64,000 bases of DNA, from positions 152,986 through 216,985 of the forward strand of contig PBNZ01000017.1 of assembly GCA_002723275.1 (NCBI GenBank), given 5' to 3'. The DNA comes from Planctomycetaceae bacterium (lineage in GTDB: Bacteria; Planctomycetota; Planctomycetia; Pirellulales; Pirellulaceae). Below the pieces are notes generated by a model, which was given only the letters and a program-made list of their open reading frames with translations, was not told the DNA's origin and made no database searches. Shown here piece by piece: positions 58,556 to 62,193 of this stretch (position 1 is its first letter; every line of letters starts with the position of its first letter). Made by a program: the position numbers and the translations under genes.

Positions 58556-59989
58556 ATGGCAGATCACCCTCAATTCAATAACCGCTCCTCTCGACGAGAG
58601 TTCCTTCGAAATTCCGGCATAGGCCTGGGTGCGCTAGGCTTGGCAACGCTTCCCGACATGGCTGATCCGGCCAGAGCAAACGGAGAATCCCTCAATCCAC
58701 TCTCAGCAAAGGCGCCTCACTTTGCAGCGTTAGCCAAACGAGTGATTCATATCTTTTTTAATGGCGGGGCCTCGCATGTAGACAGCTTTGATCCGAAGCC
58801 GGAACTCACTCGCCGCGACGGACAAGAGCTCCCGTCGCCGAACCCGATTACGGAACGGCGCACAGGAAGGGCCATGGGGTCTCCGTTTCGTTTTCAACCG
58901 TATGGGGAAAGCGGCATTGAAGTCAGCGAAATCTTTTCGCACGTGGGACGTGAAATTGATGACGTCTGCGTCATTCGATCGATGTATTCCGATCTTCCGA
59001 ATCACGAACCTTCCTTGATGTTAATGAATACAGGGGTCGCCAACGTCGTGCGCCCCAGCTTTGGATCATGGTTGACCTATGGCCTAGGTTCGGAAAACGA
59101 GAATCTGCCAGGATTCATCGCAATGTCGCCGGGCGGGCACCCCGTCAAAGGTCCACAGAATTGGCAATCAGCATTTTTACCGAGTGTCTACCAGGGAACG
59201 TACATCGACACGAAAGATCCTAAGGTCGAAAAGTTAATCAAGAACATTCGCAACAATTCGATCGATCTTGAGTTACAACGTAAACAACTTGATCTCGTGC
59301 AGCGGATCAATCAGGTCCATCTCGATCGACGTGGCAGCGATGATCAGTTGGAATCTCGCATCCAATCGTTCGAACAGGCCTACCGCATGCAGATGGCCGC
59401 AACAGAAGCCTTCGATCTGCAACGCGAACCCGAGTACATCCACCGCATGTATGGTGATACGCCCCAGGCGCGTCAAATCCTAATCGCTCGCCGCCTCGCC
59501 GAACGTGGCGTCCGCTTCATCCAACTCTGGCATGGAGCTTGGCAACCTTGGGACAATCACAATAACATCGAAAAAGAGCATCGCAAGTTAGCCGGAGAAT
59601 GCTCTCAAGCGATCGGTGCCTTGATTGCTGATTTGCGTCAACGCGGCATGCTCGACTCAACACTGGTCGTCATCGGGGGTGAATTTGGCCGAACACCAAC
59701 CGTCGAGTTATCCAGGGGCGGCAACGACGCAACCCTGGGGCGAGATCACAACCATTACGGATTCTCTCTCTGCGTTGCCGGCGGTGGGATCAAGGGTGGA
59801 CACGTTCACGGTGCGACCGATGAATTTGGCTTCCGTGCCGTTGAGAATCGGGTTCATGTGCACGATCTCCATGCGACGCTACTGCATCTCCTTGGCTTTG
59901 ACCATGAGCGGCTGACCTATCGATACGCTGGCCGAGATTTTCGTCTGACGGATGTCAAAGGACGCATTATTGAGGAAGTGATTGCCTGA
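58556..59989 (+). CDS. DUF1501 protein, Tat-exported, partner of the second PSCyt1 protein
   Basis: A 477-residue DUF1501 protein. The Tat-type leader SSRREFLRNSGIGLGALGLA is followed by HIFFNGGASHVDSFDPKPEL near residue 65, then LGSENENLPGFIAMSPGGHP near 175 and VVIGGEFGRTPTVEL near 370 with GRDHNHYGFSLCVAGGG. The end RLTDVKGRIIEEVIA matches the first pair's RLTDVHGKIVHDIIA, so 14023 and 58556 are close paralogues belonging with their upstream haem proteins. The gene starts 21 bp after the haem protein, clearly one operon. The substrate is unknown. Confidence 0.92.
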   Translation: MADHPQFNNRSSRREFLRNSGIGLGALGLATLPDMADPARANGESLNPLSAKAPHFAALAKRVIHIFFNGGASHVDSFDPKPELTRRDGQELPSPNPITERRTGRAMGSPFRFQPYGESGIEVSEIFSHVGREIDDVCVIRSMYSDLPNHEPSLMLMNTGVANVVRPSFGSWLTYGLGSENENLPGFIAMSPGGHPVKGPQNWQSAFLPSVYQGTYIDTKDPKVEKLIKNIRNNSIDLELQRKQLDLVQRINQVHLDRRGSDDQLESRIQSFEQAYRMQMAATEAFDLQREPEYIHRMYGDTPQARQILIARRLAERGVRFIQLWHGAWQPWDNHNNIEKEHRKLAGECSQAIGALIADLRQRGMLDSTLVVIGGEFGRTPTVELSRGGNDATLGRDHNHYGFSLCVAGGGIKGGHVHGATDEFGFRAVENRVHVHDLHATLLHLLGFDHERLTYRYAGRDFRLTDVKGRIIEEVIA

Positions 59990-60090: not shown

Positions 60091-60618
60091 TTGTTTCGTT
60101 TACTCTTCGTCGGTTGTATCCTGATTGTGACCGGTTGCTCGCCTGCAAGCCCCTCACACCCAAGTACCCTTCGGCTACAATCACTTGAAGAAATTCAGAA
60201 GACCCTTACAGCCAATGCGGGCAAGGTAATCGTGCTGGATTTGTAGACACTCTGGTGAGATCCGTGAGTGAAGTCACTTCCGCAACTCGTGCAGTTGCAA
60301 GAACAATTTGGGGATCAGATTCACGTCATCACCCTCAGCCTCGATTTCGATCAGCAAGGTAACGGTCCATCCGCTCAACTTCAAGCTGATATTCTCACCA
60401 AGCTGCAGCAACAGGAATTCGACTGCGACAATATCATGAGCACCACCGCAACTCATGAAGTGCTTGAATCGCTTGGCTTATCATCACTACCAGCGGTGCT
60501 CGTCTACCAAACTGACGGAACACAGCACGAGCAATTTCATGGTGCGATTGATTTCCCAAACGATGTTGCACCCGTGATTGAATCTTTGCTGACCTCTCCG
60601 CAAGAAACGGGCCCGTAA
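60091..60618 (+). pseudogene. Thioredoxin-like lipoprotein gene with TAG and two TGA codons at the active site
   Basis: The frame from a TTG at 60091 to the TAA at 60618 encodes a recognisable thioredoxin-fold lipoprotein. The signal/lipobox is FVGCILIVTGCSPAS, then KVIVLDL precedes the active site, and the second half continues intact (VKSLPQLVQLQEQFGDQ, HVITLSLDFD, and the cis-proline segment LSSLPAVLVYQ). Around the expected DLWxxWCxPC site three stops occur in eight codons: TAG at 60244 (Trp position), TGA at 60256 and TGA at 60265, the two cysteine positions of CxxC. No stop or frameshift occurs elsewhere. A SECIS-like hairpin follows the second TGA. The TAG and the missing ATG make a decayed gene the simplest reading; a UxxU selenoprotein is the alternative. 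The cardiolipin synthase gene begins 3 bp downstream. Confidence 0.72.
60282..60298 (+). other. SECIS-like hairpin after the TGA codons
   Basis: GCAACT pairs perfectly with AGTTGC around the five-base loop CGTGC. The loop begins 20 nt after the second TGA and 29 nt after the first, both within the usual 16-37 nt range described for bacterial SECIS elements, and has a G in its first two positions as that consensus requires. A stem this short also occurs by chance, so it is suggestive only. Confidence 0.35.
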
Positions 60619-60621
60619 CCC

Positions 60622-62193
60622 ATGAATCCCTGGAAACTTCGATTTCTCTTGCTCAGCCTTGTACTCCTTCTGTTTGGACAGGGCGTACTGACGCCCCTGC
60701 CTGAAGCGATCGGCAAGGAAACGGCTACAGAGAAACGGGTCGAAGAAGATCTAAAACAAACGCAAAATATCGTGCTGTTTGGATTCATCGGCGTCATGCA
60801 CATCCTGGGCGCTTTGACGTCGATACGTGCCATCATGCAAACTCGCACATCACAGGGAGCAATCGCCTGGGCGCTGTCACTGAATACCTGTCCCTATCTT
60901 GCGGTGCCTGCCTACTGGGTATTAGGGGAATCAAAATTCGACGGCTACCATGTGCTCCGACACTCGCAAATCAGTGACTTACCCTTCGCCAGCCAAACGC
61001 ACGATCGGTTGGTCAAGGAAGATCTACTCTATCGTCCCACGACTGACCAACAGGAATCACAGGCAAAGTTGCTCCACAATTTAGCTCGTCTCCCACTAAC
61101 CACTGGAAATGACGCGAGCTTGCTAGTGAATGGTGAGGCGACATTCGAGGCGATTTTCCGGGGCATCGCAACCGCCAAAGATTATGTACTCGTCCAATTC
61201 TACATTTTGAGGGATGACGATCTTGGGAAACGGCTCATTGCTTGCCTGAAAGAACGAGTTGAAGCAGGAGTCCGGGTTTACGTCCTCTACGACGAATTGG
61301 GCAGTAAAGAACTGAAGCCGCCCTTCTTGGAAAAGCTGCGCCAGGAAGGCATCGAGATTTATCCCTTCAACACCCGACAGGGTCGCGGCCACCGATTTCG
61401 TTTGAACTTTCGCAATCACCGCAAGATTGTGGTTGTTGATGGCCGCCTTGGATATGTCGGCGGCCATAACGTCGGCGTCGAGTACCTGGGACAGGATCCT
61501 GTTCTTTCACCGTGGCGAGATACCCATGTCGAAGTGACGGGACCGGTCGTGCTAGGTTTTCAGGTGTCGTTTATCGAAGATTGGGATTGGGCCGCGGGTC
61601 AGATCCTAGACGTCAACTGGGATCCTCAACGTTCCGAAACGGGAAACAAAGTAGCTATCGGCATCCCAACGGGGCCGGCAGATCAATTGGAAACAGGAAC
61701 TTTGATGTTCCTGGACATGATCAATTCGGCGCGTCATCGGATCTGGATTGTAAGCCCTTACTTTGTACCCGACGACGACCTGATTTCGGCACTGCAACTT
61801 GCAGCTTTGCGAGGGGTCGACGTACGGATCCTGATTCCGGAAAACCCCGATCACAAGCTAGTCTATCTGTCAGCATTTTCCTATCTCGAAGAAGCGGAAA
61901 AAGCTAACGTAAAGATCTTCCGGTACAAGCCGGGATTCCTGCACCAAAAGGTGATGCTCGTCGATGACTCACGTGCAACCGTCGGCACCGCCAATTTTGA
62001 CAATCGCTCGATGCGACTGAATTTTGAGATCACGCTATTGGTCCACGATTCAGAATTTGCGGCAGAAGTCGAGGCGATGCTGGAAAAAGACTTTGCGGAA
62101 AGTCGGCCGGTAGCCTCAACCGATTACACGAATCAATCCTTCTGTTTTCGGCTGGCCGTCCGTTGTGCACGTTTACTCGCGCCGGCCCAATAG
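60622..62193 (+). CDS. cls: Cardiolipin synthase
   Basis: A 523-residue inner-membrane phospholipase-D-type enzyme that joins two phosphatidylglycerol (or PE) molecules into cardiolipin. An N-terminal segment (LRFLLLSLVLLLFGQGVL) looks like a signal or membrane helix. After a charged stretch comes the PLDc_N region (IVLFGFIGVMHILGALTSIRAI and WALSLNTCPYLAVPAYWVLG), then two HKD motifs: HRKIVVVDGRLGYVGGHNVG near residue 266 and HQKVMLVDDSRATVGTANFD near 441. The second motif has the family's GT(A/S)NFDNRS context, so both active-site halves are intact. The start is 3 bp after the thioredoxin-like gene's stop, so the two genes are probably co-transcribed. Confidence 0.93.
   Translation: MNPWKLRFLLLSLVLLLFGQGVLTPLPEAIGKETATEKRVEEDLKQTQNIVLFGFIGVMHILGALTSIRAIMQTRTSQGAIAWALSLNTCPYLAVPAYWVLGESKFDGYHVLRHSQISDLPFASQTHDRLVKEDLLYRPTTDQQESQAKLLHNLARLPLTTGNDASLLVNGEATFEAIFRGIATAKDYVLVQFYILRDDDLGKRLIACLKERVEAGVRVYVLYDELGSKELKPPFLEKLRQEGIEIYPFNTRQGRGHRFRLNFRNHRKIVVVDGRLGYVGGHNVGVEYLGQDPVLSPWRDTHVEVTGPVVLGFQVSFIEDWDWAAGQILDVNWDPQRSETGNKVAIGIPTGPADQLETGTLMFLDMINSARHRIWIVSPYFVPDDDLISALQLAALRGVDVRILIPENPDHKLVYLSAFSYLEEAEKANVKIFRYKPGFLHQKVMLVDDSRATVGTANFDNRSMRLNFEITLLVHDSEFAAEVEAMLEKDFAESRPVASTDYTNQSFCFRLAVRCARLLAPAQ

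Follow-up and report, generated by a model that had tools for sequence, protein, structure and literature searches.

A planctomycete thioredoxin-like gene, probably a UxxC selenoprotein gene by descent that was recently inactivated

The stretch of DNA analysed here, called the window, spans 64,000 nucleotides of contig 17 of a planctomycete genome (G000, the host; 6.8 Mb in 47 contigs, 96.6% complete). Near its end lies a single thioredoxin-like frame, placed between a DUF1501 gene and a phospholipase-D-family gene that we take to be cardiolipin synthase-like (Table 1). Read as an ORF, the frame contains three internal stops, with 51 open codons ahead of the first and 116 past the last, and it ends at a TAA (60616-60618). 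We found the frame free of frameshifts and its internal stops confined to the active-site region. A first-pass annotation, made by a model from the letters and a list of their ORFs, had described the frame as open except for these three codons and had placed both TGAs at redox cysteine positions. Both statements were borne out, the second by a homologue alignment in which codon 52 corresponds to a tryptophan and codons 56 and 59 to the CxxC cysteines. The same annotation noted that no ATG opens the frame; this is so, but a TTG at position 60091 could serve as the start, followed by what is probably a lipoprotein-like signal, the corresponding signal of the congener reading AISGC. The TAG and TGA calls come from one assembly.

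Table 1. Features of the thioredoxin-like locus (window coordinates)
Feature	Position	Strand	Remark
DUF1501 gene, upstream	58556-59989	+	also the next same-strand gene in the congener
Thioredoxin-fold (TlpA/ResA-like) frame	60091-60618	+	orthologue of a putative planctomycete UxxC selenoprotein; 3 internal stops
TTG start and putative lipoprotein-like signal ending VTGC	60091-60138	+	from the sequence; congener signal AISGC
TAG	60244-60246	+	codon 52, conserved Trp of DLW; the 10 other codon-aligned TGA forms all have TGG
TGA	60256-60258	+	codon 56, first CxxC cysteine position; putative inherited selenocysteine codon
TGA	60265-60267	+	codon 59, second CxxC cysteine position; the 10 other codon-aligned TGA forms all have TGC or TGT
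Hairpin of the first-pass annotation, GCAACT-CGTGC-AGTTGC	60282-60298	+	overlaps and competes with the conserved hairpin; no covariation
Conserved putative SECIS hairpin, CTCGTGC-AGTT-GCAAGAA	60286-60303	+	loop 60293-60296; the host copy forms 5 of the 7 family pairs
Phospholipase-D-family gene, downstream	60622-62193	+	same neighbour in the congener

With TGA read as U and TAG as W, the translated frame scored above the cut-offs of the thioredoxin-clan profiles PF13905 (35.7 bits, cut-off 27) and PF00085 (25.0 bits, cut-off 23.5), and AlphaFold2 predicted a thioredoxin fold for the read-through protein (mean pLDDT 80.9). The nearest solved structures were mostly ResA chains (TM 0.58-0.60 by query length), and profile matches also extended to ResA, StoA and TlpA. 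These thiol-disulfide oxidoreductases are the best matches by fold and by profile, but identity was 13-22% among the 50 matches listed and the NCBIfam scores fell short for both ResA (NF002854, 39.5 of the 170 bits required) and TlpA (NF047696, 42.4 of 230 bits). The host copy and four selenocysteine (Sec) relatives were all far under the cut-offs of the NCBIfam models that they matched.

Homologues were collected from 98 genomes (the host included), and then from 241 genomes of the family, 396 of the order and 392 of the phylum; the loci are the best-scoring ones of each search, not a random sample. Some thioredoxin-like match was present in 97 of the 98 genomes, the host included. Most homologues read have the motif CxxC, L072 and L074 among them, and the in-frame stops read in L008, L013, L022, L052, L054, L062, L066, L070, L071 and L098 mark where Cys forms end. 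A TGA at the first motif cysteine within an otherwise open frame was found in at least 11 other genomes of the phylum (G001, G026, G042, G048, G033, G277, G278, G035, G134, G784 and G834), a lower bound because the searches overlap, include the host and score the best candidates of each genome, and a count that leaves out loci with flagged, unread stops (G058, G237, G025 and G437). The second motif codon is Cys in all of these genomes. In the 11 TGA forms aligned by codon (the host's and ten others, G834 being left out), codon 56 is invariably TGA, and in all but the host copy codon 52 is TGG and codon 59 is TGC or TGT; the translation of G834 has W and C at these last two positions. Among the 12 TGA forms, TAG 60244 and TGA 60265 are thus private to the host.

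The one congener compared, G001, carries its gene between the same two neighbours, one opposite-strand ORF separating it from the DUF1501 gene. Its orthologue is UxxC, neither plain CxxC nor UxxU. The two thioredoxin-like genes are 41% identical, as against 57% for PSD1, 80% for DUF1501 and 66% for the phospholipase-D-family gene. In a tree of 91 rows (G834 left out), the TGA forms require two changes, compared with a mean of 10.6 when the labels were shuffled, and the host copy pairs with that of G001 (support 100/74), several deep forks being weak. Elsewhere in this tree L091 (G134, UxxC) and L070 (G098, CxxC) are sisters, which suggests a recent Sec/Cys exchange.

The first-pass annotation had proposed the TGA at the first redox cysteine as a Sec codon and an alignment of related planctomycetes as a check. 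The codon-56 TGA recurs in 11 other genomes, the congener among them, while the TAG and the second TGA occur in the host only. Judged by this alignment, TGA 60256 is a selenocysteine codon by descent, at a redox position that homologues keep as Cys or TGA. The host copy departs from a UxxC selenoprotein at two points, a non-Sec stop at 60244 and a second motif residue encoded by TGA 60265 and not by a Cys codon. That an ordinary CxxC thioredoxin gene decayed here, all three stops being random, would agree with the CxxC state of most homologues read; this account is contradicted by the syntenic G001 orthologue and ten others with TGA at codon 56 and by the covarying hairpin described below, and we find it scarcely credible. 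The annotation's own favoured reading, a decayed gene whose redox site was lost, therefore holds in part: the gene is most likely decayed, but decay does not account for all three codons of the redox site, since the intact relatives also have a TGA where the host has TGA 60256.

Thioredoxin-like or thiol-disulfide isomerase-like UxxC selenoproteins (Trx-like 1 COG0526; cd02966) are tabulated in the portions of PMC2398784 and PMC13188914 available to us. They resemble the present family in the thioredoxin fold, in having Sec first in the redox motif and in their many Cys homologues; the host copy differs from them in its TAG at the Trp position and its TGA at the second Cys.

Downstream of the active site, the 12 TGA forms, aligned without gaps, show a hairpin in which columns 31-37 pair with columns 42-48 (60286-60292 with 60297-60303 of the window). 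Across the 12 forms it is 86.9% paired, a percentage favoured by the structure having been drawn from the same sequences. Neither the 500 shuffles nor any slid version matched its covariation score over the 12 genomes (0.314); pair 33-46 varies between CG, UA and GC, and pair 34-45 is CG in G834 against GC in six rows. Two of the five covariation measures were weaker, both-sides pair changes being matched in 21 of 500 shuffles and further pair types in 199. In an earlier 13-row alignment, with two extra loci picked by the core pattern and with G834 left out, the score was again matched by none of 500 shuffles, both-sides changes by 267 and further pair types by 465. The 10-base core TGCAGTTGCA stands at the exact offset in 11 of the 12 TGA forms, G784 being the exception, compared with 1 of 80 Cys forms (p 2.6e-12, only a rough value because the rows are related). 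The 80 are the Cys forms caught by a regular expression among 123 homologue loci and leave out L022 and L062 (Cys forms) and L138, L140 and L142 (no stop listed inside); every other locus outside the 80 either duplicates DNA already included or is one of the TGA forms named above.

Two side observations concern the core. A Cys form of G235 (L066 1618-1677, motif CEPC) still carries it at the exact offset, possibly as the remnant of a lost selenoprotein, or by chance. JACPTZ, a Planctomycetota MAG from groundwater, has two divergent thioredoxin-like UxxC frames (L082 6022 and, on the minus strand, L083 near 3281) that share the core and its spacing, the search pattern that led to them having itself demanded the core. 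We also considered whether the core is simply an enriched repeat and rejected this: it occurs 18 times in the host and 42 times in G001, compared with 16 and 27 for the reversed pattern, and is thus at most mildly raised in G001.

The AGTT loop is separated from TGA 60256 by 34 nt and from TGA 60265 by 25 nt, distances that fit the 16-37 nt of a published SECIS model, as given in the available part of PMC13188914. Set against the SECIS model terms (G in the first two loop positions, a loop of 3-9 nt, an upper stem of 4-16 bp and at most -7.5 kcal/mol), the host hairpin fits in its 34-nt spacing and its loop, and its stem is interrupted by a mismatch. Five of seven stem pairs form in the host and in G784, and six or seven in the other nine of the 11 rows listed (G834 is not among them). 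The pairs missing in the host are 31-48 and 34-45; 5 of the 12 rows lack the first and 5 the second, and their absence is consequently no strong sign of decay. The conserved hairpin alone folds at -3.1 kcal/mol in the host; the 54-nt stretch reaches -10.5 kcal/mol, but by folding as the hairpin of the first-pass annotation (6 bp, -5.1 kcal/mol alone). The RNAfold z of the stretch is +0.24 in the host, no better than shuffled, compared with -1.56 to -3.63 in seven relatives, and in four of these seven, folded alike, the best fold is likewise not the family hairpin. As a SECIS element, the hairpin at 60282-60298 was rejected: it shows no both-sides change in either the 13 or the 12 rows. The earlier claim of a SECIS-like hairpin there was thus right in that such a hairpin exists and that a putative SECIS lies downstream of the TGAs, but the covarying structure is the one at 60286-60303. 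Between the host and G001 this stretch is the joint best-conserved 8-codon window, 3 of 24 bases differing against a mean of 11. At gathering thresholds, no Rfam family matched the window.

The first-pass annotation had asked for selA, selB, selC and selD in the genome, and all four are present: the host encodes SelA (495 bits), SelB (386 bits) and SelD (356 bits), and its tRNA-Sec, the only one found, has the anticodon TCA. On this count the selenoprotein idea is supported. SelD (L076, around 1006-1932, contig 44) has an in-frame TGA at GUAGK (CAGUAGK) and itself appears to be a selenoprotein. Two planctomycetes from Porphyra, P1 and P2, belong to the same phylum and likewise have selenoproteins and the full Sec machinery, according to the available text of PMC4807772. 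The host also holds an AhpC/TSA-family UxxC candidate (HLSULPC; L194 1260-1874, contig 19), and G001 has a similar gene (L193). The host candidate scores 62.9 bits with PF00578, its frame is apparently intact, and it is followed by a perfect 7-bp stem with an AGTT loop 25 nt after the TGA. Thirty core occurrences were read (15 of the 18 in the host and 15 of the 42 in G001), and three of them follow a TGA at 13-40 nt in a frame that has no other stop: those of the G001 orthologue and of the AhpC/TSA-like UxxC protein in the host and in G001 (25 nt). The window gene fails this open-frame filter because of its other stops. Since the AhpC-like gene carries the core hairpin, Sec decoding looks alive in the host, and 25 nt, the spacing of the second TGA of the window gene, is one that the host appears to use.

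The annotation had also pointed out that the TAG at the Trp position would stop translation first, and this stands. None of the 43 tRNA genes identified (42 Rfam tRNA matches and the tRNA-Sec, anticodons by ARAGORN, two identical Cys tRNAs included) has a CTA anticodon. This list may be incomplete, as 150 of 253 candidates were scored and only two CAT anticodons were recovered, and with the genome 96.6% complete a suppressor tRNA may have been missed. With no UAG-reading tRNA found, translation should stop at codon 52 and leave a product of 51 residues, which counts against a selenoprotein made from this copy. TAG as a sense codon was rejected as well: it terminates 8 of the 35 long ORFs of the window. 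Reading through or suppressing the TAG could give a UxxU or UxxC protein at low level, and the 116 open codons after the stops would suit this; given the missing CTA anticodon, a tRNA-Sec whose anticodon is TCA and the ordinary use of TAG as terminator in the window, we consider it highly improbable. Much the same applies to separate translation of the C-terminal 116 codons: a GTG at 60268, immediately after the second TGA, opens such a frame, but its product would be without the active site and we saw no support for an internal start, which makes this very unlikely too.

Signs of decay outside the active site are slight. The host branch is longer than that of G001 (1.19 against 0.57), and the host copy has an odd letter make-up. 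Taking G026 as the outgroup, we counted 26, 23 and 35 private changes at codon positions 1, 2 and 3 in the host, compared with 23, 10 and 20 in G001 (p 0.67, 0.024 and 0.043). Amino-acid counts (host:G001) with nine outgroups were 26:15, 21:16, 24:16, 23:18, 20:20, 18:19, 22:10, 19:20 and 17:18, so that the host exceeds G001 with five outgroups, ties with one and falls slightly below it with three, and five picked relative-rate comparisons gave p 0.086, 0.034, 0.024, 0.67 and 0.043. These figures weakly suggest relaxed constraint in the host. As there is no frameshift, any decay must be recent.

We conclude, with a probability of about 0.8, that the window gene is a UxxC selenoprotein gene by descent which was recently inactivated and is most likely a pseudogene; this and the gradings of the other readings are judgements, not computations. 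Its ancestor would have been a planctomycete thioredoxin-fold, probably lipid-anchored, thiol-disulfide oxidoreductase with a UxxC active site. In the intact relatives, UGA at the first active-site position would be read as selenocysteine, guided by a SECIS with an AGUU loop 34 nt downstream, and a selenol-thiol pair would carry out the redox chemistry; the genes, codon and hairpin are there in the sequence, and we infer Sec insertion and the chemistry from the family. In the host, the Trp codon ahead of the active site would have become UAG and the second Cys codon UGA, ending the product after 51 residues, in a cell that probably still makes selenoproteins elsewhere. On these sequences either mutation may have come first. 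Comparable in part are Cys homologues with a remnant SECIS, described in the accessible part of PMC1794560 as cases in which a Sec-decoding organism has lost a selenoprotein: there too Sec decoding persists and a SECIS is left behind, but the change was from Sec to Cys, whereas here nonsense mutation would be the route.

Several things count against a pseudogene: the frame has gained neither a frameshift nor a stop beyond the active site, the SECIS stretch is well conserved between the host and G001, and the two new lesions lie within eight codons, about 1% by chance. Depending on transition bias, both land in codons 52-59 with a probability of 0.7-1.8% (a stretch picked after the data were seen, with the inherited TGA left out), and one random nonsense lesion lands on the second Cys codon with a probability of 0.8-1.6%; for a pair within any eight codons of the frame the figure is about 8%. 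Given where the lesions fall, there may have been a genuine UxxU stage, in which the second Cys codon became a second Sec codon served by the same SECIS at 25 nt, and which would either still exist, the TAG being an error, or have been lost soon afterwards through the TAG. We hold such a stage to be possible, though somewhat doubtful.

A working UxxU selenoprotein today, with one SECIS decoding both UGAs and the TAG a base error at 60245 in the assembly, is a stronger claim and in our judgement unlikely. The second TGA falls exactly on the second redox cysteine at a distance from the loop that lies within the range given in PMC13188914 and equals that of the AhpC-like selenoprotein candidate in the same genome, and the downstream frame and SECIS core are intact. 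The motif has precedents, UxxU being listed for Prx-like (PF00578), mercuric-reductase-like (NF041115) and FmdB-like selenoproteins in the portions of the literature at hand; these share the two Sec positions two residues apart but belong to other protein families. On the other side, this reading needs the assembly to be wrong at one particular base, the second cysteine codon is not TGA in any of the 11 other TGA forms, and the stretch folds no better than shuffled sequence, although the two family pairs unformed in the host are often unformed among its relatives. The available parts of the literature searched (PMC9312934, PMC13188914, PMC2398784, PMC4807772 and PMC1794560 among it) yielded no UxxU member of the planctomycete family. 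The first-pass alternative of a UxxU selenoprotein with TAG suppression or an error at 60245 therefore keeps its Sec machinery and its SECIS, but is set against a UxxC congener and a tRNA list without CTA.

Inactivation of a UxxC selenoprotein gene thus remains the preferred reading. In two congeners of a little-studied phylum, thioredoxin-like and AhpC-like putative selenoproteins have a SECIS core in common, and nonsense mutation has apparently been caught in the course of removing one selenoprotein. Should a UxxU stage have existed, the origin of a second Sec beside an existing SECIS would become testable.
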